A stretch of DNA of 64,000 bases, from contig JALAAN010000010.1 of assembly GCA_023078555.1 (NCBI GenBank), positions 248,001-312,000 on the forward strand, in the 5' to 3' direction. Under the pieces are notes generated by a model. It saw only the letters and a program-made list of their open reading frames with translations, ran no database searches and was not told where the DNA came from. Made by a program: the position numbers and the translations under genes. Shown here in pieces: positions 25,015 to 59,491 of the stretch (position 1 is the first letter of the stretch; each line of letters begins with the position of its first letter). Origin of the DNA: Ulva prolifera. Taxonomy: Eukaryota; Chlorophyta; Ulvophyceae; Ulvales; Ulvaceae.

Positions 25015-28000
25015 GACAAGTCAGGGCAAGGGCTGCTATCAATGTTGAAATGGCAGCGCGCTCTCCCGCCACTCATGCAGAAATCCCGCGCTTCACAAAA
25101 ACAGGTTCCCAACCTCACGTTAGGGGCTGAATCTTTGCACATGATACTCTCTATGTCACAGGAATGTGGTCTAGAAGTTTGGAGGCAATCAAGTGATAAG
25201 TCAGGGCTAGGGCTGCTATCAATGTTGAAAAGGCAGCGCGCTCTCCCGCCCCTCATGCAGAAATCCCGCGCCTCACAAAAACAGGTTCCCAACCTCACGT
25301 TAGGGGCTGAATCTTTGCACATGATACTCTCTATGTCACAGGAATGTGGTCTAGAAGTTTGGAGGCAATCAAGTGATAAGTCAGGGCAAGGGCTCCTATC
25401 AATGTTGAAATGGCAGCGCGCTCTCCCGCCACTCATGCAGAAATCTCGCCCTCACAAAAACAGGTTCCCAACCTCACGTTAGGGGCTGAATCTTTGCACA
25501 TGATGCTCTCTATGTCAAAGGAATGTGGTCTAGAAGTTTGGAGGCAATCAAGTGACAAGTCAGGGCAAGGGTTGCTATCAATGTTGAAATGGCAGCGCGC
25601 TCTCCCGCCCCTCATGCAGAAATCTCGCCCTCACAAAAACAGGTTCCCAACCTCACGTTCGGGGCTGAATCTTTGCACATGATGCTCTCTATGTCAAAGG
25701 AATGTGGTGTAGAAGTTTGGAGGCAATCAAGTGATAAGTCAGGGCAAGGGTTGCTATCAATGTTGAAAAGGCAGCGCGCTCTCCCGCCCCTCATGCAGAA
25801 ATCCCGCGCCTCACAAAAACAGGTTCCCAACCTCACGTTTGGGGCTGAATCTTTGCACATGATACTCTCTATGTCAAAGGAATGTCATGTAGAAGTTTGG
25901 AGGCAATCAAGTGATAAGTCAGGGCTAGGGCTGCTATCAATGTTGAAATGGCAGCACGCTCTCCCGCCACTCATGCAGAAATCTCGCCCCCGCAAAAACA
26001 GGTTCCCAACCTCACTTTAGGGGCTGAATCTTTGCACATGATGCTATCTATGTCAAATTAATGTGATGTGATGGTTTGGAGGCAATCAAGTGATAACTCA
26101 GGGCTAGGGCTGCTTTAAATGTTGAAATGGCAGCGTGCTCCCATGCCACTCATGCAGAATTCTCGCACCTCACCAAAACAGGTTCCCAACCTCACCTTAG
26201 GGGCTGAATCTTTGCACATGATGCTCTCTATGTCAAAGGAATGTGGTGTAGAAGTTTGGAGGCAATCAAGTGATAAGTCAGGGCTAGGGCTGCTATCAAT
26301 GTTGAAATGGCAGCACGCTCTCCCGCCACTCATGCAGAAATCTCGCCCTCGCAAAAACAGGTTCCCAACCTCACTTTAGGGGCTGAATCTTTGCACATGA
26401 TGCTATCTATGTCAAATTAATGTGATGTGATGGTTTGGAGGCAATCAAGTGATAACTCAGGGCTAGGGCTGCTTTAAATGTTGAAATGGCAGCGTGCTCC
26501 CATGCCACTCATGCAGAAATCTCGCACCTCACAAAAACAGGTTCCCAACCTCACCTTAGGGGCTGAATCTTTGCACATGATGCTCTCTATGTCAAAGGAA
26601 TGTGGTGTAGAAGTTTGGAGGCAATCAAGTGATAAGTCAGGGCTAGGGCTGCTATCAATGTTGAAAAGGCAGCGCGCTCTCCCGCCCCTCATGCAGAAAT
26701 CCCGCGCCTCACAAAAACAGGTTCCCAACCTCACGTTTGGGGCTGAATCTTTGCACATGATACTCTCTATGTCAAAGGAATGTGGTGTAGAAGTTTGGAG
26801 GCAATCAAGTGATAAGTCAGGGCAAGGGCTGCTATCAATGTTGAAAAGGCAGCGCGCTCTCCCGCCCCTCATGCAGAAATCTCGCCCTCACAAAAACAGG
26901 TTCCCAACCTCACGTTAGGGGCTGAATCTTTGCACATGATGCTCTCTATGTCAAAGGAATGTGGTGTAGAAGTTTGGAGGCAATCAAGTGATAAGTCAGG
27001 GCTAGGGCTGCCATCAATGTTGAAATGGCAGCGTGCTCCCATGCCACTCATGCAGAAATCCCGCGCCTCACAAAAACATGTTCCCAACCTCACGTTAGGG
27101 GCTGAATCTTTGCACATGATGCTATCTATGTCAAATTAATGTGATGTGAGGGTTTGGAGGCAATCAAGTGATAACTCAGGGCTAGGGCTGCTTTAAATGT
27201 TGAAATGGCAGCGTGCTCCCATGCCACTCATGCAGAAATCTCGCACCTCACAAAAACAGGTTCCCAACCTCACCATAGGGGCTGAATCTTTGCACATGAT
27301 GCTCTCTATGTCAAAGGAATGTGGTGTAGAAGTTTGGAGGCAATCAAGTGATAAGTCAGGGCTAGGGCTGCTATCAATGTTGAAATGGCAGCGCGCTCTC
27401 CCGCCACTCATGCAGAAATCCCGCGCCTCACAAAAACAGGTTCCCAACCTCACGTTAGGGGCTGAATCTATGCACATGATGCTCTCTATGTCAAAGGAAT
27501 GTGGTGTAGAAGTTTGGAGGCAATCAAGTGATAAGTCAGGGCTAGGGCTGCCATCAATGTTGAAATGGCAGCGTGCTCCCATGCCACTCATGCAGAAATC
27601 CCGCGCCTCACAAAAACATGTTCCCAACCTCACGTTAGGGGCTGAATCTTTGCACATGATGCTCTCTTTGTCAAAGGAATGTGGTCTAGAAGTTTGGAGG
27701 CAATCAAGTGATAAGTCAGGGCAAGGGTTGCTATCAATGTTGAAAAGGCAGCGCGCTCTCCCGCCCCTCATGCAGAAATCCCGCGCCTCACAAAAACAGG
27801 TTCCCAACCTCACCTTAGGGGCTGAATCTTTGCACATGATGCTCTCTATGTCAAAGGAATGTGGTGTAGAAGTTTGGAGGCAATCAAGTGATAAGTCAGG
27901 GCTAGGGCTGCTATCAATGATGAAATGGCAGCGCGCTCTCCCGCCACTCATGCAGAAAACCCGCGCCTCACAAAAACAGGTTCCCAACCTCACGTTAGGG

Positions 28001-39814: not shown

Positions 39815-42153
39815 TCATGCAGAAATCTCGCCCTCACAAAAACAGGTTCCCAACCTCACGTTAGGGGCTGAATCTTTGCACATGATGCTCTCTATGTCAA
39901 AGGAATGTGGTCTAGAAGTTTGGAGGCAATCAAGTGACAAGTCAGGGCAAGGGTTGCTATCAATGTTGAAATGGCAGCGCGCTCTCCCGCCCCTCATGCA
40001 GAAATCTCGCCCTCACAAAAACAGGTTCCCAACCTCACGTTCGGGGCTGAATCTTTGCACATGATGCTCTCTATGTCAAAGGAATGTGGTGTAGAAGTTT
40101 GGAGGCAATCAAGTGATAAGTCAGGGCAAGGGTTGCTATCAATGTTGAAAAGGCAGCGCGCTCTCCCGCCCCTCATGCAGAAATCCCGCGCCTCACAAAA
40201 ACAGGTTCCCAACCTCACGTTTGGGGCTGAATCTTTGCACATGATACTCTCTATGTCAAAGGAATGTCATGTAGAAGTTTGGAGGCAATCAAGTGATAAG
40301 TCAGGGCTAGGGCTGCTATCAATGTTGAAATGGCAGCACGCTCTCCCGCCACTCACGCAGAAATCTCGCCCCCGCAAAAACAGGTTCCCAACCTCACTTT
40401 AGGGGCTGAATCTTTGCACATGATGCTATCTATGTCAAATTAATGTGATGTGATGGTTTGGAGGCAATCAAGTGATAACTCAGGGCGGGCTAGGGCTGCT
40501 TTAAATGTTGAAATGGCAGCGTGCTCCCATGCCACTCATGCAGAAATCTCGCACCTCACAAAAACAGGTTCCCAACCTCACCTTAGGGGCTGAATCTTTG
40601 CACATGATGCTCTCTATGTCAAAGGAATGTGGTGTAGAAGTTTGGAGGCAATCAAGTGATAAGTCAGGGCTAGGGCTGCTATCAATGTTGAAATGGCAGC
40701 ACGCTCTCCCGCCACTCATGCAGAAATCTCGCCCTCGCAAAAACAGGTTCCCAACCTCACTTTAGGGGCTGAATCTTTGCACATGATGCTATCTATGTCA
40801 AATTAATGTGATGTGATGGTTTGGAGGCAATCAAGTGATAACTCAGGGCTAGGGCTGCTTTAAATGTTGAAATGGCAGCGTGCTCCCATGCCACTCATGC
40901 AGAAATCTCGCACCTCACAAAAACAGGTTCCCAACCTCACCTTAGGGGCTGAATCTTTGCACATGATGCTCTCTATGTCAAAGGAATGTGGTGTAGAAGT
41001 TTGGAGGCAATCAAGTGATAAGTCAGGGCTAGGGCTGCTATCAATGTTGAAAAGGCAGCGCGCTCTCCCGCCCCTCATGCAGAAATCCCGCGCCTCACAA
41101 AAACAGGTTCCCAACCTCACGTTTGGGGCTGAATCTTTGCACATGATACTCTCTATGTCAAAGGAATGTGGTGTAGAAGTTTGGAGGCAATCAAGTGATA
41201 AGTCAGGGCAAGGGCTGCTATCAATGTTGAAAAGGCAGCGCGCTCTCCCGCCCCTCATGCAGAAATCTCGCCCTCACAAAAACAGGTTCCCAACCTCACG
41301 TTAGGGGCTGAATCTTTGCACATGATGCTCTCTATGTCAAAGGAATGTGGTGTAGAAGTTTGGAGGCAATCAAGTGATAAGTCAGGGCTAGGGCTGCCAT
41401 CAATGTTGAAATGGCAGCGTGCTCCCATGCCACTCATGCAGAAATCCCGCGCCTCACAAAAACATGTTCCCAACCTCACGTTAGGGGCTGAATCTTTGCA
41501 CATGATGCTATCTATGTCAAATTAATGTGATGTGAGGGTTTGGAGGCAATCAAGTGATAACTCAGGGCTAGGGCTGCTTTAAATGTTGAAATGGCAGCGT
41601 GCTCCCATGCCACTCATGCAGAAATCTCGCACCTCACAAAAACAGGTTCCCAACCTCACCATAGGGGCTGAATCTTTGCACATGATGCTCTCTATGTCAA
41701 AGGAATGTGGTGTAGAAGTTTGGAGGCAATCAAGTGATAAGTCAGGGCTAGGGCTGCTATCAATGTTGAAATGGCAGCGCGCTCTCCCGCCACTCATGCA
41801 GAAATCCCGCGCCTCACAAAAACAGGTTCCCAACCTCACGTTAGGGGCTGATTCTATGCACATGATGCTCTCTTTGTCAAAGGAATGTGGTCTAGAAGTT
41901 TGGAGGCAATCAAGTGATAAGTCAGGGCAAGGGTTGCTATCAATGTTGAAAAGGCAGCGCGCTCTCCCGCCCCTCATGCAGAAATCCCGCGCCTCACAAA
42001 AACAGGTTCCCAACCTCACGTTAGGGGCTGAATCTTTGCACATGATACTCTCTATGTCAAAGGAATGTGGTGTAGAAGTTTGGAGGCAATCAAGTGATAA
42101 GTCAGGGCAAGGGCTGCTATCAATGTTGAAAAGGCAGCGCGCTCTCCCGCCCC
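39815..42153. repeat. 2339-bp tandem duplication, copy 1 (13 monomers plus 4 bp)
   Basis: Matches 42154-44585 at offset 2339 before 40485 and 2335 after it. The difference is a four-base GGGC duplication in 'cagggcgggctagggctg' (40481-40498), private to this copy. A private 'ctcacgcag' lies near 40352 and 'gattctatgcac' near 41849. Confidence 0.88.
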
Positions 42154-44585: not shown

Positions 44586-46945
44586 GTAGAAGTTTGGAGG
44601 CAATCAAGTGATAAGTCAGGGCTAGGGCTGCCATCAATGTTGAAATGGCAGCGTGCTCCCATGCCACTCATGCAGAAATCCCGCGCCTCACAAAAACATG
44701 TTCCCAACATCACGTTAGGGGCTGAATCTTTGCACATGATGCTCTCTATGTCAAAGGAATGTGCTCTAGAAGTTTGGAGGCAATCAAGTGATAAGTCAGG
44801 GCTAGGGCTGCTATCAATGTTGAAATGGCAGCGTGCTCCCATGCCCCTCATGCAGAAATCTCGCCCTCACAAAAACAGGTTCCCAACCTCACGTTAGGGG
44901 CTGAATCTTTGCACATGATGCTCTCTTTGTCAAAGGAATGTGGTCTGGAAGTTTGGAGGCAATCAAGTGACAAGTCAGGGCAAGGGCTGCTATCAATGTT
45001 GAAATGGCAGCGCGCTCTCCCGCCACTCATGCAGAAATCCCGCGCTTCACAAAAACAGGTTCCCAACCTCACGTTAGGGGCTGAATCTTTGCACATGATA
45101 CTCTCTATGTCACAGGAATGTGGTCTAGAAGTTTGGAGGCAGTCAAGTGATAAGTCAGGGCAAGGGCTCCTATCAATGTTGAAATGGCAGCGCGCTCTCC
45201 CGCCACTCATGCAGAAATCTCGCGCCTCACAAAAACATGTTCCCAACCTCACGTTAGGGGCTGAATCTTTGCACATGATGCTCTCTATGTCAAAGGAATG
45301 TGGTGTAGAAGTTTGGAGGCAATCAAGTGATAAGTCAGGGCTAGGGCTGCCATCAATGTTGAAATGGCAGCGTGCTCCCATGCCACTCATGCAGAAATCC
45401 CGCGCCTCACAAAAACATGTTCCCAACATCACGTTAGGGGCTGAATCTTTGCACATGATGCTCTCTATGTCAAAGGAATGTGGTCTAGAAGTTTGGAGGC
45501 AATCAAGTGATAAGTCAGGGCTAGGGCTGCCATCAATGTTGAAATGGCAGCGTGCTCCCATGCAACTCATGCAGAAATCCCGCGCCTCACAAAAACATGT
45601 TCCCAACATCACGTTAGGGGCTGAATCTTTGCACATGATGCTCTCTATGTCAAAGGAATGTGGTGTAGAAGTTTGGAGGCAATCAAGTGATAAGTCAGGG
45701 CTAGGGCTGCCATCAATGTTGAAAAGGCAGCGCGCTCTCCCGCCCCTCATGCAGAAATCCCGCGCCTCACAAAAACAGGTTCCCAACCTCACGTTTGGGG
45801 CTGAATCTTTGCACATGATACTCTCTATGTCAAAGGAATGTGGTGTAGAAGTTTGGAGGCAATCAAGTGATAAGTCAGGGCTAGGGCTGCTATCAATGTT
45901 GAAATGGCAGCACGCTCTCCCGCCACTCATGCAGAAATCTCGCCCTCGCAAAAACAGGTTCCCAACCTCACGTTAGGGGCTGAATCTTTGCACATGATAC
46001 TCTCTATGTCACAGGAATGTGGTCTAGAAGTTTGGAGGCAATCAAGTGATAAGTCAGGGCAAGGGCTCCTATCAATGTTGAAATGGCAGCGCGCTCTCCC
46101 GCCACTCATGCAGAAATCTCGCCCTCACAAAAACAGGTTCCCAACCTCACGTTAGGGGCTGAATCTTTGCACATGATGCTCTCTATGTCAAAGGAATGTG
46201 GTCTAGAAGTTTGGAGGCAATCAAGTGACAAGTCAGGGCAAGGGTTGCTATCAATGTTGAAATGGCAGCGCGCTCTCCCGCCCCTCATGCAGAAATCTCG
46301 CCCTCACAAAAACAGGTTCCCAACCTCACGTTCGGGGCTGAATCTTTGCACATGATGCTCTCTATGTCAAAGGAATGTGGTGTAGAAGTTTGGAGGCAAT
46401 CAAGTGATAAGTCAGGGCAAGGGTTGCTATCAATGTTGAAAAGGCAGCGCGCTCTCCCGCCCCTCATGCAGAAATCCCGCGCCTCACAAAAACAGGTTCC
46501 CAACCTCACGTTTGGGGCTGAATCTTTGCACATGATACTCTCTATGTCAAAGGAATGTCATGTAGAAGTTTGGAGGCAATCAAGTGATAAGTCAGGGCTA
46601 GGGCTGCTATCAATGTTGAAATGGCAGCACGCTCTCCCGCCACTCATGCAGAAATCTCGCCCCCGCAAAAACAGGTTCCCAACCTCACTTTAGGGGCTGA
46701 ATCTTTGCACATGATGCTATCTATGTCAAATTAATGTGATGTGATGGTTTGGAGGCAATCAAGTGATAACTCAGGGCTAGGGCTGCTTTAAATGTTGAAA
46801 TGGCAGCGTGCTCCCATGCCACTCATGCAGAATTCTCGCACCTCACCAAAACAGGTTCCCAACCTCACCTTAGGGGCTGAATCTTTGCACATGATGCTCT
46901 CTATGTCAAAGGAATGTGGTGTAGAAGTTTGGAGGCAATCAAGTG

Positions 46946-49102
46946 ATAAGTCAGGGCTAGGGCTGCTATCAATGTTGAAATGGCAGCACGCTCTCCCGCC
47001 ACTCATGCAGAAATCTCGCCCTCGCAAAAACAGGTTCCCAACCTCACTTTAGGGGCTGAATCTTTGCACATGATGCTATCTATGTCAAATTAATGTGATG
47101 TGATGGTTTGGAGGCAATCAAGTGATAACTCAGGGCTAGGGCTGCTTTAAATGTTGAAATGGCAGCGTGCTCCCATGCCACTCATGCAGAAATCTCGCAC
47201 CTCACAAAAACAGGTTCCCAACCTCACCTTAGGGGCTGAATCTTTGCACATGATGCTCTCTATGTCAAAGGAATGTGGTGTAGAAGTTTGGAGGCAATCA
47301 AGTGATAAGTCAGGGCTAGGGCTGCTATCAATGTTGAAAAGGCAGCGCGCTCTCCCGCCCCTCATGCAGAAATCCCGCGCCTCACAAAAACAGGTTCCCA
47401 ACCTCACGTTTGGGGCTGAATCTTTGCACATGATACTCTCTATGTCAAAGGAATGTGGTGTAGAAGTTTGGAGGCAATCAAGTGATAAGTCAGGGCAAGG
47501 GCTGCTATCAATGTTGAAAAGGCAGCGCGCTCTCCCGCCCCTCATGCAGAAATCTCGCCCTCACAAAAACAGGTTCCCAACCTCACGTTAGGGGCTGAAT
47601 CTTTGCACATGATGCTCTCTATGTCAAAGGAATGTGGTGTAGAAGTTTGGAGGCAATCAAGTGATAAGTCAGGGCTAGGGCTGCCATCAATGTTGAAATG
47701 GCAGCGTGCTCCCATGCCACTCATGCAGAAATCCCGCGCCTCACAAAAACATGTTCCCAACCTCACGTTAGGGGCTGAATCTTTGCACATGATGCTATCT
47801 ATGTCAAATTAATGTGATGTGAGGGTTTGGAGGCAATCAAGTGATAACTCAGGGCTAGGGCTGCTTTAAATGTTGAAATGGCAGCGTGCTCCCATGCCAC
47901 TCATGCAGAAATCTCGCACCTCACAAAAACAGGTTCCCAACCTCACCATAGGGGCTGAATCTTTGCACATGATGCTCTCTATGTCAAAGGAATGTGGTGT
48001 AGAAGTTTGGAGGCAATCAAGTGATAAGTCAGGGCTAGGGCTGCTATCAATGTTGAAATGGCAGCGCGCTCTCCCGCCACTCATGCAGAAATCCCGCGCC
48101 TCACAAAAACAGGTTCCCAACCTCACGTTAGGGGCTGAATCTATGCACATGATGCTCTCTTTGTCAAAGGAATGTGGTGTAGAAGTTTGGAGGCAATCAA
48201 GTGATAAGTCAGGGCTAGGGCTGCCATCAATGTTGAAATGGCAGCGTGCTCCCATGCCACTCATGCAGAAATCCCGCGCCTCACAAAAACATGTTCCCAA
48301 CCTCACGTTAGGGGCTGAATCTTTGCACATGATGCTATCTATGTCAAATTAATGTGATGTGAGGGTTTGGAGGCAATCAAGTGATAACTCAGGGCTAGGG
48401 CTGCTTTAAATGTTGAAATGGCAGCGTGCTCCCATGCCACTCATGCAGAAATCTCGCACCTCACAAAAACAGGTTCCCAACCTCACCATAGGGGCTGAAT
48501 CTTTGCACATGATGCTCTCTATGTCAAAGGAATGTGGTGTAGAAGTTTGGAGGCAATCAAGTGATAAGTCAGGGCTAGGGCTGCTATCAATGTTGAAAAG
48601 GCAGCGCGCTCTCCCGCCACTCATGCAGAAATCCCGCGCCTCACAAAAACAGGTTCCCAACCTCACGTTTGGGGCTGAATCTATGCACATGATACTCTCT
48701 ATGTCAAAGGAATGTGGTCTAGAAGTTTGGAGGCAATCAAGTGATAAGTCAGGGCAAGGGTTGCTATCAATGTTGAAAAGGCAGCGCGCTCTCCCGCCCC
48801 TCATGCAGAAATCTCGCCCTCACAAAAACAGGTTCCCAACCTCACGTTAGGGGCTGAATCTTTGCACATGATGCTCTCTATGTCAAAGGAATGTGGTGTA
48901 GAAGTTTGGAGGCAATCAAGTGATAAGTCAGGGCTAGGGCTGCCATCAATGTTGAAATGGCAGCGTGCTCCCATGCCACTCATGCAGAAATCCCGCGCCT
49001 CACAAAAACAGGTTCCCAACCTCACGTTAGGGGCTGAATCTTTGCACATGATGCTATCTATGTCAAATTAATGTGATGTGAGGGTTTGGAGGCAATCAAG
49101 TG
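46946..49102. repeat. 2157-bp tandem duplication, copy 1 (12 monomers)
   Basis: Matches 49103-51280 at a constant offset of 2157 bp. Within it are spacers at 47147, 47866 and 48406, two 'caccataggggctg' monomers and 'gaatctatgcacatgatac' (about 48678). Confidence 0.88.
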
Positions 49103-51280: not shown

Positions 51281-53340
51281 TTTAAATGTTGAAATGGCAG
51301 CGTGCTCCCATGCCACTCATGCAGAAATCTCGCACCTCACAAAAACAGGTTCCCAACCTCACCATAGGGGCTGAATCTTTGCACATGATGCTCTCTATGT
51401 CAAAGGAATGTGGTGTAGAAGTTTGGAGGCAATCAAGTGATAAGTCAGGGCTAGGGCTGCTATCAATGTTGAAATGGCAGCGCGCTCTCCCGCCACTCAT
51501 GCAGAAATCCCGCGCCTCACAAAAACAGGTTCCCAACCTCACGTTAGGGGCTGAATCTATGCACATGATGCTCTCTTTGTCAAAGGAATGTGGTCTAGAA
51601 GTTTGGAGGCAATCAAGTGATAAGTCAGGGCAAGGGTTGCTATCAATGTTGAAAAGGCAGCGCGCTCTCCCGCCCCTCATGCAGAAATCCCGCGCCTCAC
51701 AAAAACAGGTTCCCAACCTCACGTTAGGGGCTGAATCTTTGCACATGATACTCTCTATGTCAAAGGAATGTGGTGTAGAAGTTTGGAGGCAATCAAGTGA
51801 TAAGTCAGGGCAAGGGCTGCTATCAATGTTGAAAAGGCAGCGCGCTCTCCCGCCCCTCATGCAGAAATCTCGCCCTCACAAAAACAGGTTCCCAACCTCA
51901 CGTTAGGGGCTGAATCTTTGCACATGATGCTCTCTATGTCAAAGGAATGTGGTCTAGAAGTTTGGAGGCAATCAAGTGACAAGTCAGGGCAAGGGTTGCT
52001 ATCAATGTTGAAATGGCAGCGCGCTCTCCCGCCCCTCATGCAGAAATCTCGCCCTCACAAAAACAGGTTCCCAACCTCACGTTCGGGGCTGAATCTTTGC
52101 ACATGATGCTCTCTATGTCAAAGGAATGTGGTGTAGAAGTTTGGAGGCAATCAAGTGATAAGTCAGGGCAAGGGTTGCTATCAATGTTGAAAAGGCAGCG
52201 CGCTCTCCCGCCCCTCATGCAGAAATCCCGCGCCTCACAAAAACAGGTTCCCAACCTCACGTTTGGGGCTGAATCTTTGCACATGATACTCTCTATGTCA
52301 AAGGAATGTCATGTAGAAGTTTGGAGGCAATCAAGTGATAAGTCAGGGCTAGGGCTGCTATCAATGTTGAAATGGCAGCACGCTCTCCCGCCACTCATGC
52401 AGAAATCTCGCCCCCGCAAAAACAGGTTCCCAACCTCACTTTAGGGGCTGAATCTTTGCACATGATGCTATCTATGTCAAATTAATGTGATGTGATGGTT
52501 TGGAGGCAATCAAGTGATAACTCAGGGCTAGGGCTGCTTTAAATGTTGAAATGGCAGCGTGCTCCCATGCCACTCATGCAGAAATCTCGCACCTCACAAA
52601 AACAGGTTCCCAACCTCACCTTAGGGGCTGAATCTTTGCACATGATGCTCTCTATGTCAAAGGAATGTGGTGTAGAAGTTTGGAGGCAATCAAGTGATAA
52701 GTCAGGGCTAGGGCTGCTATCAATGTTGAAATGGCAGCACGCTCTCCCGCCACTCATGCAGAAATCTCGCCCTCGCAAAAACAGGTTCCCAACCTCACTT
52801 TAGGGGCTGAATCTTTGCACATGATGCTATCTATGTCAAATTAATGTGATGTGATGGTTTGGAGGCAATCAAGTGATAACTCAGGGCTAGGGCTGCTTTA
52901 AATGTTGAAATGGCAGCGTGCTCCCATGCCACTCATGCAGAAATCTCGCACCTCACAAAAACAGGTTCCCAACCTCACCTTAGGGGCTGAATCTTTGCAC
53001 ATGATGCTCTCTATGTCAAAGGAATGTGGTGTAGAAGTTTGGAGGCAATCAAGTGATAAGTCAGGGCTAGGGCTGCTATCAATGTTGAAAAGGCAGCGCG
53101 CTCTCCCGCCCCTCATGCAGAAATCCCGCGCCTCACAAAAACAGGTTCCCAACCTCACGTTTGGGGCTGAATCTTTGCACATGATACTCTCTATGTCAAA
53201 GGAATGTGGTGTAGAAGTTTGGAGGCAATCAAGTGATAAGTCAGGGCAAGGGCTGCTATCAATGTTGAAAAGGCAGCGCGCTCTCCCGCCCCTCATGCAG
53301 AAATCTCGCCCTCACAAAAACAGGTTCCCAACCTCACGTT

Positions 53341-54437
53341 AGGGGCTGAATTTTGCACATGATGCTCTCTATGTCAAAGGAATGTGGTGTAGAAGTTTGG
53401 AGGCAATCAAGTGATAAGTCAGGGCTAGGGCTGCCATCAATGTTGAAATGGCAGCGTGCTCCCATGCCACTCATGCAGAAATCCGCGCCTCACAAAAAAA
53501 CATGTTCCCAACTCACGTTAGGGGCTGAATCTTTGCACATGATGCTATCTATGTCAAATTAATGTGATGTGAGGGTTTGGAGGCAATCAAGTGATAACTC
53601 AGGGCTAGGGCTGCTTTTAAATGTTGAAATGGCAGCGTGCTCCCATGCCACTCATGCAGAAATCTCGCACCTCACAAAAACAGGTTCCCAACTCACCATA
53701 GGGGCTGAATCTTTGCACATGATGCTCTCTATGTCAAAGGAATGTGGTTGGTAGAGTTTGGAGGCAATCAAGTGATAAGTCAGGGGCTAGGGCTGCTATC
53801 AATGTTGAAATGGCAGCGCGCTCTCCCGCCACTCATGCAGAAAATCCCGCGCCTCACAAAAACAGGTTCCCAAACTCACGTTAGGGGCTGAATCTAGCAC
53901 ATGATGCTCTCTTTGTCAAAGGAATGTGGTGTAGAAGTTTGGAGGCAATCAAGTGATAGTCAGGGCTAGGGCTGCCATCAATGTTGAAATGGCAGCGTGC
54001 TCCCATGCCACTCATGCAGAAATCCCGCGCCTCACAAAAAAACATGTTCCCAACCTCACGTTAGGGGCTGAATCTTTGCACATGATGCTATCTATGTCAA
54101 ATTAATGTGATGTGAGGGTTTGGAGGCAATCAAGTGATAACTCAGGGCTAGGGGCTGCTTTAAAGTTGAAATGGCAGCTGCTCCCATGCCACTCATGCAG
54201 AAATCTCGCACCTCACAAAAACAGGTTCCCACCTCACCATAGGGGCTGAATCTTTGCACATGATGTCTCTAGGTCAAAGGAGGAATGTGGGTAGAAGTTT
54301 GGAGGCAATCAAGTGATAAGTCAGGGCTAGGGCTGATCAATGTTGAAAAGGCAGCGCGCTCTCCCGCCACTCATGCAGAAATCCCGCGCATCACAAAAAC
54401 AGGTTCCCAACCTCACGTTTGGGGCTGAACTATGCAC
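53341..54437. repeat. Indel-rich satellite segment before the N
   Basis: By monomer order this is another copy of 47590-48687 (and of 49747-50844). Unlike every other part of the array, it carries about 20 short indels in 1.1 kb. Many lie in homopolymers: 'cacaaaaaaacatg' (about 53491), 'ctgcttttaaatg' (about 53610), 'caggggctaggg' (about 53782), 'gaaaatcccg' (about 53840). Others are lost or gained bases such as 'gaattttgcac' (53349), 'gatagtcaggg' (about 53956), 'taaagttgaaatgg' (54162) and 'gtgggtagaag' (about 54287). The pattern looks like uncorrected long-read error at a contig end. Real decay at an array boundary is possible but less likely, because substitutions do not rise with the indels. 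Confidence 0.85.
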
Positions 54438-54438
54438 N
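54438..54438. other. Ambiguous base (N): probable assembly join
   Basis: The only N I see in the window lies exactly where satellite ('gctgaactatgcac') turns into unrelated sequence ('ctgtatgcaacacgg'). It suggests a joined or gap-filled boundary, so adjacency across it should not be assumed. Confidence 0.8.
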
Positions 54439-54914
54439 CTGTATGCAACACGGACACACACACGATTCAGCCGGCGGGCGGTGTGTCCAGCCCCAAGGCA
54501 CCAACACAGAGTAAACGCGAATGAAGCAGGTGACACACACGGCCGCGAAGTCAGCAGTCCCGTACACTATACCATCTGATAGTGCCATTAGTCGATATGT
54601 TTGAAGGACGGCGTGCGGGGGTAGCACAGGGCTCCTAGCTGCGCTGTGATACGTGCAGAAGATTGCGCTGATCGGACAACACGGCACGCCTCAGCGTGGC
54701 ACTGACAACCATCTCAGGAAGGACGTACCGCTTGAAAAACAAAAATCAATGGAAACACATCCGAGTGACGACCGGTGGGAGAGGATGACGCCGAGGAACA
54801 TTGCTTCGTAGTGCGCCATGTCTTGTATGGCGGGCACTATCTGCACGTCACTCCCTGCTACCAAACAAACCCCAACTGACTGCGATAGAGACGTTGTGCC
54901 ATCTACAGAGTAAT

Positions 54915-55313
54915 ATGTTAAGAATACCACCCGCTGATGCCGACTTCAGTAGTTATGCTGCAACGTGTGGCAGCATCACTCAACCACAACAGCCAAGACA
55001 CACGCTAGATTCCAACGTACATACCGAGCATACACTAGCCCTCGGTCCCAATAGCTTCCAGCAAGTCACACTGTTGCTTAAGGATCGGTGCGCGACAGTT
55101 CTAGCGCGAGAGGTCTTGCAGATACCGCGAACAGGGGCTACCTGGTTCAGATCGCCTCACGCATGTAAGTGCCCAGGCGCCCACCAACCGGCACCCCGAA
55201 CGCACACAGACGACATCATCGCCTATCTCAAAGTCATCAGGGTCGTATCTGCATCCCCGGGCTCGCCTTTTGGGGCTGATATGCCGGACAGCCGAAACGA
55301 GGGTGATTCATAA
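54915..55313 (+). CDS. Hypothetical ORF, 132 codons, function unknown
   Basis: An ATG-initiated frame starting MLRIPPADADFSSY and ending at a TAA (55311-55313). The frame stays open upstream to a TTG at 54801, which would give 170 codons but is not a usual eukaryotic start. I recognise no domain, signal peptide, membrane segment, zinc-binding pattern or repeat. The composition is unremarkable, with several Pro, Thr and His. An open frame of this length is only mildly unusual by chance in 1 kb of about 50% GC, and no splice or promoter context supports it. It could also be part of an exon or purely random. Confidence 0.12.
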   Translation: MLRIPPADADFSSYAATCGSITQPQQPRHTLDSNVHTEHTLALGPNSFQQVTLLLKDRCATVLAREVLQIPRTGATWFRSPHACKCPGAHQPAPRTHTDDIIAYLKVIRVVSASPGSPFGADMPDSRNEGDS

Positions 55314-55464
55314 TAACGTTCGTAACTTGACCAAATGGGACCCGATCGACCTCAGAATTGTTCCATGTTACACAGAAGAGACATATAGACAATGTAGACG
55401 TGTAATTATGCCATTTGGAGCTCTTTTCGAAAACTTTTGATTCGCATTTCTATCGCGCACCAAC

Positions 55465-55489
55465 AGTCGCGCACCCCGGGTGCGCGACT
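55465..55489. repeat. 25-nt palindrome, 12-bp arms around one C
   Basis: Arms 'agtcgcgcaccc' and 'gggtgcgcgact' are exact reverse complements separated by a single C. The motif 'tcgcgcacc' also occurs just upstream at 55453. It sits 17 bp before the satellite resumes at 55507. Possible readings are a dimeric protein-binding site, a cruciform-prone hairpin, the tip of a mobile element or a short junction artefact. The sequence alone does not choose among them. Confidence 0.75.
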
Positions 55490-58104
55490 TGGCGGTAGGC
55501 CCTGTGGTGATAACTCAGGGCTAGGGCTGCTTTAAATGTTGAAATGGCAGCGTGCTCCCATGCCACTCATGCAGAATTCTCGCACCTCACCAAAACAGGT
55601 TCCCAATCTCACCTTAGGGGCTGAATCTTTGCACATGATGCTCTCTATGTCAAAGGAATGTGGTGTAGAAGTTTGGAGGCAATCAAGTGATAAGTCAGGG
55701 CTAGGGCTGCTATCAATGTTGAAATGGCAGCACGCTCTCCCGCCACTCATGCAGAAATCTCGCCCTCGCAAAAACAGGTTCCCAACCTCACTTTAGGGGC
55801 TGAATCTTTGCACATGATGCTATCTATGTCAAATTAATGTGATGTGATGGTTTGGAGGCAATCAAGTGATAACTCAGGGCTAGGGCTGCTTTAAATGTTG
55901 AAATGGCAGCGTGCTCCCATGCCACTCATGCAGAAATCTCGCACCTCACAAAAACAGGTTCCCAACCTCACCTTAGGGGCTGAATCTTTGCACATGATGC
56001 TCTCTATGTCAAAGGAATGTGGTGTAGAAGTTTGGAGGCAATCAAGTGATAAGTCAGGGCTAGGGCTGCTATCAATGTTGAAATGGCAGCGCGCTCTCCC
56101 GCCACTCATGCAGAAATCCCGCGCCTCACAAAAACAGGTTCCCAACCTCACGTTAGGGGCTGAATCTTTGCACATGATGCTCTCTTTGTCAAAGGAATGT
56201 GGTCTAGAAGTATGGAGGCAATCAAGTGATAAGTCAGGGCAAGGGTTGCTATCAATGTTGAAAAGGCAGCGCGCTCTCCCGCCCCTCATGCAGAAATCCC
56301 GCGCCTCACAAAAACAGGTTCCCAACCTCACGTTTGGGGCTGAATCTTTGCACATGATACTCTCTATGTCAAAGGAATGTGGTGTAGAAGTTTGGAGGCA
56401 ATCAAGTGATAAGTCAGGGCAAGGGCTGCTATCAATGTTTAAAAGGCAGCGCGCTCTCCCGCCCCTCATGCAGAAATCTCGCCCTCACAAAAACAGGTTC
56501 CCAACCTCACGTTAGGGGTTGAATCTTTGCACATGATGCTCTCTATGTCAAAGGAATGTGGTGTAGAAGTTTGGAGGCAATCAAGTGATAAGTCAGGGCT
56601 AGGGCTGCCATCAATGTTAAAATGGCAGCGTGCTCCCATGCCACTCATGCAGAAATCCCGCGCCTCACAAAAACATGTTCCCAACCTCACGTTAGGGGCT
56701 GAATCTTTGCACATGATGCTCTCTATGTCAAAGGAATGTGGTGTAGAAGTTTGGAGGCAATCAAGTGATAAGTCAGGGCTAGGGCTGCTATCAATGTTGA
56801 AATGGCAGCGCGCTCTCCCGCCACTCATGCAGAAATCCCGCGCCTCACAAAAACAGGTTCCCAACCTCACGTTAGGGGCTGAATCTTTGCACATGATGCT
56901 CTCTTTGTCAAAGGACTGTGGTCTAGAAGTTTGGAGGCAATCAAGAGATAAGTCAGGGCAAGGGTTGCTATCAATGTTGAAAAGGCAGCGCGCTCTCCCG
57001 CCCCTCATGCAGAAATCCCGCGCCTCACAAAAACAGGTTCCCAACCTCACGTTAGGGGCTGAATCTTTGCACATGATACTCTCTATGTCAAAGGAATGTG
57101 GTGTAGAAGTTTGGAGGCAATCAAGTGATAAGTCAGGGCAAGGGCTGCTATCAATGTTGAAAAGGCAGCGCGCTCTCCCGCCCCTCATGCAGAAATCTCG
57201 CCCTCACAAAAACAGGTTCCCAACCTCACGTTAGGGGCTGAATCTTTGCACATGATGCTCTCTATGTCAAAGGAATGTGGTGTAGAAGTTTGGAGGCAAT
57301 CAAGTGATAAGTCAGGGCTAGGGCTGCCATCAATGTTGAAATGGCAGCGTGCTCCCATGCCACTCATGCAGAAATCCCGCGCCTCACAAAAACATGTTCC
57401 CAACATCACGTTAGGGGCTGAATCTTTGCACATGATGCTCTCTATGTCAAAGGAATGTGGTCTAGAAGTTTGGAGGCAATCAAGTGATAAGTCAGGGCTA
57501 GGGCTGCTATCAATGTTGAAATGGCAGCGTGCTCCCATGCCCCTCATGCAGAAATCTCGCCCTCACAAAAACAGGTTCCCAACCTCACGTTCGGGGCTGA
57601 ATCTTTGCACATGATGCTCTCTATGTCAAAGGAATGTGGTGTAGAAGTTTGGAGGCAATCAAGTGATAAGTCAGGGCTAGGGCTGCTATCAATGTTGAAA
57701 TGGCAGCGCGCTCTCCCGCCACTCATGCAAAAATCCCGCGCCTCACAAAAACAGGTTCCCAACCTCACGTTAGGGGCTGAATCTTTGCACATGATGCTCT
57801 CTTTGTCAAAGGAATGTGGTCTAGAAGTTTGGAGGCAATCAAGTGATAAGTCAGGGCAAGGGTTGCTATCAATGTTGAAAAGGCAGCGCGCTCTCCCGCC
57901 CCTCATGCAGAAATCCCGCGCCTCACAAAAACAGGTTCCCAACCTCACGTTAGGGGCTGAATCTTTGCACATGATGCTCTCTATGTCAAAGGAATGTGGT
58001 CTAGAAGTTTGGAGGCAATCAAGTGACAAGTCAGGGCAAGGGCTGCTATCAATGTTGAAATGGCAGCGCGCTCTCCCGCCACTCATGCAGAAATCCCGCG
58101 CTTC

Positions 58105-59491
58105 ACAAAAACAGGTTCCCAACCTCACGTTAGGGGCTGAATCTTTGCACATGATACTCTCTATGTCACAGGAATGTGGTCTAGAAGTTTGGAGGCAATC
58201 AAGTGATAAGTCAGGGCAAGGGCTCCTATCAATGTTGAAATGGCAGCGCGCTCTCCCGCCACTCATGCAGAAATCTCGCCCTCACAAAAACAGGTTCCCA
58301 ACCTCACGTTAAGGGCTGAATCTTTGCACATGATGCTATCTATGTCAAATTATTGTGATGTGAGGGTTTGGAGGCAATCAAGTGATAACTCAGGGCTAGG
58401 GCTGCTTTAAATGTTGAAATGGCAGCAAGCTCCCATGCCACTCATGCAGAAATCTCGCACCTCACAAAAACAGGTTCCCAACCTCACCTTAGGGGCTGAA
58501 TCTTTGCACATGATGCTCTCTATGTCAAAGGAATGTGGTGTAGAAGTTTGGAGGCAATCAAGTGATAAGTCAGGGCTAGGGCTGCTATCAATGATGAAAT
58601 GGCAGCGCGCTCTCCCGCCACTCATGCAGAAATCCCGCGCCTCACAAAAACAGGTTCCCAACCTCACGTTAGGGGCTGAATCTTTGCACATGATGCTCTC
58701 TTTGTCAAAGGAATGTGGTCTAGAAATTTGGAGGCAATCAAGTGATAAGTCAGGGCTAGGGCTGCTATCAATGTTGAAATGTCAGCTGGCTCCCATGCCA
58801 CTCATGCAAAAATCTCGCGCCTCACAAAAACATGTTCCCAACCTCATTTTTGAGGCTGAATCTTTGCACATGATGCTCTCTATGTCACAGGAATGTGGTC
58901 TAGAAGTTTGGAGGCAATCAAGTGACAAGTCAGGGCAAGGGCTCCTATCAATGTTGAAATGGCAGCGCGCTCTCCCGCCACTCATGCAGAAATCTCGCCC
59001 TCACAAAAACAGGTTCCCAACCTCACGTTAAGGGCTGAATCTTTGCACATGATGCTATCTATGTCAAATTAATGTGATGTGAGGGTTTGGAGGCAATCAA
59101 GTGATAACTCAGGGCTAGGGCTGCTTTAAATGTTGAAATGGCAGCAAGCTCCCATGCCACTCATGCAGAAATCTCGCACCTCACAAAAACAGGTTCCCAA
59201 CCTCACCTTAGGGGCTGAATCTTTGCACATGATGCTCTCTATGTCAAAGGAATGTGGTGTAGAAGTTTGGAGGCAATCAAGTGATAAGTCAGGGCTAGGG
59301 CTGCTATCAATGATGAAATGGCAGCGCGCTCTCCCGCCACTCATGCAGAAATCCCGCGCCTCACAAAAACAGGTTCCCAACCTCACGTTAGGGGCTGAAT
59401 CTTTGCACATGATGCTCTCTTTGTCAAAGGAATGTGGTCTAGAAATTTGGAGGCAATCAAGTGATAAGTCAGGGCTAGGGCTGCTATCAAT
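58105..59491. repeat. 1.39-kb block repeated 4312 bp downstream, copy 1
   Basis: Matches 62417-63803 at offset 4312 (24 monomers). Within it, 58407 and 59126 are themselves 719 bp apart. Shared rare variants are 'ggcagcaagctccc' (about 58422) and 'aatgtcagctggctcc' (about 58779). Only one difference was noticed ('attattgtgatg' at about 58349 against 'attaatgtgatg'). Confidence 0.82.

Follow-up and report, generated by a model that had tools for sequence, protein, structure and literature searches.

A contig-end fault at a single-N scaffold gap as the likely cause of a clipped transposon insertion in a satellite array of Ulva prolifera

The 64,000-nucleotide stretch analysed here, called the window below (C10:248001-312000, in a searched genome of 88.9 Mb in 44 contigs), is made of a 180-bp satellite, and the monomer spacing of this satellite is broken by 1196 bp at an island of other DNA that directly follows a single N. 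Is this island, together with the cluster of indels in front of it and the phase-shifted array behind it, the trace of a biological event or a product of the assembly? The preliminary description had recorded the N, the non-satellite DNA and the phase-shifted restart, all of which are present, and had proposed that one join explains everything. As set out below this holds for the indel burst and for the left edge of the island, but neither the island itself nor the restart of the array is a product of the join. Judged from the sequence, it is very likely that the locus reflects a contig-end fault at a scaffold gap, where the right contig starts inside a real transposon that is thereby clipped to its 3' end. 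Unprefixed positions are those of the window, and its features are given on the forward strand. The host is taken to be a green-lineage alga: the chlorophyll a/b-binding family has 38 matches in the genome, and for two of the encoded proteins the first match is a solved chain named LHCI-2, followed by numerous chlorophyll a-b binding proteins.

A 360-bp satellite query returned at least 121 genome matches, all of them on C10 (40 of 236 candidates scored). The array was compared over C10:218001-352000 and C10:480001-600000 by cutting these regions into 360-bp tiles that overlap by half and scoring each tile against the rest of the fetched array; 1273 of 1395 tiles were scored, a match over at least 95% of the tile length being required and the remainder being dropped. 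The array of the left contig (1..53350) has a clean consensus. All 295 tiles of this left 53 kb (C10:248001-300991) were scored, 283 of them without a gap base, and just two had three gap bases or more (C10:288201 and C10:288381), these two being overlapping tiles with one 4-bp gap. The spacing of the monomer anchors is 184 bp at 40402-40586, i.e., a 4-bp insertion within an otherwise indel-poor array.

This changes at 53351. When window positions 53001-54437 were aligned to their two best array copies (C10:295250-296688 and C10:297407-298845), the noisy tail of the left contig (53351..54437) differed by 22 indel events, which span 53351-54429, and by 3 substitutions. The 1138 bases that directly precede the N, for which C10:295549-296688 and C10:297706-298845 are the best matches, have 3 mismatches and 22 gap openings with 28 gap bases. 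The earlier estimate of about 20 indels in the last 1.1 kb before the N, after almost none in the preceding 53 kb or so, is borne out by this count. The number of events in successive fifths of the tail is 4, 5, 3, 4, and 6, i.e., roughly flat, and the burst is a step and not a slope. The view that consensus quality falls towards the contig end is thus not upheld on the left side, but on the island side the indels do become fewer further from the N. Similarly, many of the indels do lie in homopolymers (12 of 22 within runs) as had been noted, but with about 45% of the array bases in runs this is not a significant bias (P = 0.24), and homopolymer bias was dropped as evidence.

The N itself (54438) is a scaffold gap between two contigs. 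The other gaps in the two array regions are of 28, 374, and 500 N, and C10:352001-372000 has none. The 360-bp tiles that lie flush with the eight edges of these four gaps have 13, 9, 12, 6, 5, 3, 30, and 12 gap bases, where the third and fourth values belong to the window's own N; an excess of indels, 3-30 gap bases per tile, is therefore found at 8/8 gap edges. Away from gaps the median per tile is 0 gap bases and the mean is 0.33. Three or more gap bases were present in 18 of the 40 tiles within 1.1 kb of a gap vs. 30 of 1221 elsewhere (Fisher P = 6e-17; 1261 satellite tiles, 12 scored tiles from two islands having been dropped), a P-value that is only a guide as the tiles half-overlap. On both sides of the window's N indels exceed substitutions, 22 vs. 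3 on the left and in the form of private indels on the right. An indel burst thus appears to be the usual look of a contig end in this assembly, and the sequence comparisons support the reading of both the burst and the left island edge as contig-end artefacts at a scaffold gap, in agreement with the attribution of the burst to a fault at a join in the preliminary description. Against this reading stand three indel clusters without any N, which (C10:239061-242481, C10:332661-336981, and C10:565861-567121) together hold 28 of the 30 indel-rich tiles distant from gaps, some of them with substitutions too. Indel bursts therefore also occur away from visible gaps, and these three are perhaps hidden joins or poorly corrected patches. 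A single N may denote a negative gap estimate, a reading on which nothing here rests. Excerpts of PMC6733440, PMC5368935, PMC8110574, and PMC9326850 do not state this equivalence, for which a printed source was sought there.

It could be argued that the burst is instead biological decay of satellite DNA beside an insertion, and the abrupt start of the indels near the island would fit with this. However, an intact insertion of the same element on C10 (see below) lacks a burst in the last 1.1 kb of its left flank, which differs from the six best other copies listed by 1-4 mismatches and at most one gap base, and the preceding 1.1 kb there has 1-2 gap bases even though it is 32-35 mismatches away from its nearest copies. 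Furthermore, the 22 indels of the window are not matched by a rise of substitutions, of which there are three, and the same burst is present at gap edges without any insertion. On these grounds biological decay was rejected, and we consider it scarcely conceivable.

The right contig opens with the island (54439..55506), which is a DNA transposon of 11.49 kb with terminal inverted repeats, clipped to its 3'-terminal 1068 bp. The island was originally described as unrelated sequence, which is not the case, as it has 13 matches in the genome of which six, the window included, span essentially all of it at 91-100% identity. The near-full copies besides the window are located at C10:534306-535371 and on C2, C1, and C9 (98-99% identity) and on C7 (91%). 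In all five of these copies (L002-L006) homology extends to the left past the point that corresponds to the N, and the next 1000 bp of the element leftwards from the break, which are absent beside the window, are present at C10:533306-534305 and on other contigs. The first 36 bp of the island are garbled. Beyond them, only indels set the island apart from its closest sister copy, and these become fewer away from the N; insertions private to the window are found at 54707, 54732, 54793-54794, 54812, and 55301. At all 14 of the 14 substitution columns that vary among L001-L005, the first 36 bases left out, the window shares the base of the intact copy on C10 (L002), and as column 54950 alone separates L002 from L003 these columns say little about which sister is the nearest. 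The right end of the element (55465..55506) consists of a palindrome with perfect 12-bp arms, AGTCGCGCACCC and GGGTGCGCGACT, at 55465-55489, followed by the terminal repeat ending GGCCCTGTG; L014 carries the same palindrome.

The intact copy is 11,493 bp long (C10:523879-535371), begins CACAGAGACTACAGCC and ends GGCGGTAGGCCCTGTG, and its terminal inverted repeats are CACAGAGACTACAGCC on the left and, as reverse complement, CACAGGGCCTACCGCC on the right. Target-site duplication was examined on both sides at the C10 and C1 copies, the former being bounded by GT on both sides and the latter by CT. When the flanks of the C10 copy are joined with one GT removed, they match 800/800 bases of uninterrupted array at five listed sites, two of which are empty target sites within the window (25692..26491 and 46365..47164). 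Exact 800-base empty sites together with a flanking GT imply insertion with a 2-bp target duplication, and the element at C10:523879-535371 was inserted into the satellite with duplication of GT. In the window the right copy of this duplication is retained (GT at 55507..55508), the left one having been lost at the N. Dispersed copies of the element have the same termini in different flanks. The foreign DNA, which had been explained by the join, is in other words a genuine transposon 3' end with an intact counterpart in the same satellite on C10.

Some copies of the element are themselves interrupted: C2:10565235-10573954 by two insertions of about 2.5 and 2.9 kb, C9:951838-983983 by about 32 kb, and C7:5387413-5400679 by about 13 kb. 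The array also has a second non-satellite island, at about C10:500140-512040 (L011 and L012), the first 5 kb of which is approximately 100% identical, in two pieces, to C2:3221787-3226649 and also matches C2:7362437 and C9:929987 over short lengths, and which contains a unit of about 350 bp repeated near 508.6-510.2 kb.

The right edge of the island presents a different picture from the left. The same transposon/satellite junction is present without a gap at C10:535371/535372, and the satellite that follows the element in the window (55507..58311) is a near-duplicate of C10:535372-537816. Thus, 55507-56600 has 3 mismatches to C10:535372-536465, the only register with three edits or fewer, the next best having 12 edits (1334 full-length registers in the fetched array, the window's own included), and 57004-58311 is identical to C10:536509-537816, the next best having 15 edits. 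The copy-specific bases of the window in the first block are at 55607, 56288, and 56519. Between the two blocks there is a length difference of 360 bp, i.e., two monomers. As both the island and the satellite behind it are near-duplicates of the intact junction, the right edge is genuine and the left edge is a contig start; the sequence comparison establishes the right edge as a true transposon/satellite junction, inherited from the same insertion as that at C10:535371. The flanking satellite was counted as stronger evidence for this common origin than the island columns. The near-identity to C10:535372 onwards lasts for about 4.3 kb, then breaks up, and isolated tiles at about 7-8 kb are all that recover it. 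The right contig was not found to be collinear with C10:534306 onwards over its whole length, the in-register identity being 93.3% vs. 93.0-93.8% for the 25 best of 803 registers.

Across the element the phase of the satellite closes at the intact copy (179 bp, one monomer) but not in the window (127 bp, not about 180), where the satellite is out of phase because the left part of the element and the true insertion site are missing at the N. Continuation of the left contig in phase into the right flank was considered and rejected: when the two flanks in the window are joined, even the five best array matches differ by 16-17 mismatches and 65 gap bases. Moreover, the noisy last kilobase has its nearest matches at other sites of the array, and its seven best listed matches do not include the left flank of the intact copy. 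This indicates from the sequence that the contigs on either side of the N are not necessarily neighbours.

We return to the contig-end fault. Two contigs meet at the N, the left one ending in about 1.1 kb of poorly corrected satellite consensus and the right one (C10:302439-344116, 41.7 kb up to the next gap) starting 1068 bp before the 3' end of the transposon, likewise with errors in its initial bases. The contig was probably broken here because three or more other large contigs carry near-identical copies of the 11.49-kb element and the array is homogeneous, which would have left reads without a unique placement. On this very likely reading the window contains a second version of the insertion at C10:523879-535371, cut to its right end by an assembly gap. 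The missing part of the element would be expected to exist in the genome at the window copy, and the two contigs would have been joined wrongly or too tightly. The alternative that the element is truly 5'-truncated and directly abuts the satellite, with nothing hidden by the N, can point to a differently shortened version without an N at C10:124849-127826. Against this, the truncation coincides with the N to the base and the consensus is rich in errors on both sides, and we regard true truncation as distinctly improbable.

That shortened version, the third of the insertion, retains the left junction and 2,978 bp from the start of the element (C10:124849-127826; L038 = C10:126601-128600), after which satellite follows without any N. 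Its element part has matches that round to 100%, with no difference over the 1226 bases read. The satellite after it (C10:127827-128600) has 1 mismatch in 774 both to C10:536789-537562 and to C10:305284-306057, the next best of the ten matches listed having 6, and its break would therefore be a deletion of about 9.9 kb from the element into the right flank.

How many of these versions are real? One possibility is a false duplication, where the right contig represents C10:534306-581594 a second time, as the alternative haplotype or as a duplicate contig that was not collapsed, and sits about 232 kb left of its proper place. Gaps flank the piece on either side, and the island plus the first 1094 bp of satellite differ from C10:534306 onwards by indels mostly near the N and by 3 substitutions; excerpts of PMC8081667 and PMC9516828 describe false duplications close to contig boundaries. 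However, near-identity ends after about 4.3 kb and the whole-piece register is no better than others, and the third flank version has a deletion junction of its own and one mismatch in 774 to each of the other two (although a single mismatch could be an error). Three flank versions are poorly explained by two haplotypes alone, and we look upon false duplication as a serious but rather doubtful possibility. The other possibility is a real copy, where a stretch of the array with its insertion has been duplicated by unequal exchange and only the left part of it is absent from the assembly. The three versions of the insertion surroundings on C10, one of them with a clean 9.9-kb deletion, argue for this, as does the two-monomer length difference relative to C10:535372 onwards, which is expected of unequal exchange. 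On the other hand all three versions lie on one gapped scaffold, and placement is unreliable in a homogeneous array, so that for the window copy we hold this reading to be evenly balanced. As two haplotypes do not readily account for three versions, part of the copy number is probably real duplication in the array, as far as the sequences tell. It is tempting to speculate, a little on the doubtful side of an even balance, that copies of one insertion, each with the array around it, came to lie at three places or more (C10:124849, C10:302439, and C10:523879), once with the 9.9-kb deletion, and that the element serves as a natural tag for the order and tempo of satellite turnover in this alga.

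The distinction matters: without it, a contig-end artefact could be taken for biological decay, or for an insertion into the satellite whose left boundary is odd, whereas with it the real part, a transposon insertion with known empty sites, is retained. It also suggests that in this scaffold contig ends may be recognised with the help of indel bursts, which would be useful at one-N gaps, although three bursts lack an N.

Compared with known systems, the element resembles TIR DNA transposons with a 2-bp duplication in its inverted termini CACAG(A/G)G..., its GT and CT duplications, its exact empty sites and its dispersed near-identical copies. It differs from them in that no transposase family reaches the Pfam cut-off, and its superfamily is unassigned: the ten open frames of the intact copy, compared with Pfam at E up to 1, gave no match above the cut-off and just a weak C2H2/BED finger. 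CACTA/EnSpm termini begin CACTA or CACTG, and this superfamily was set aside as the termini of the element begin CACAG. The placement of the window copy is similar to homotype or heterotype false duplication, in so far as this is characterised in excerpts of PMC8081667 and PMC9516828, in that a near-duplicate on the same scaffold lies beside a gap and the boundary consensus is of lower quality. False duplication is defined by depth and k-mer evidence, and the window case differs from it in having a third flank version, which argues for some real duplication.
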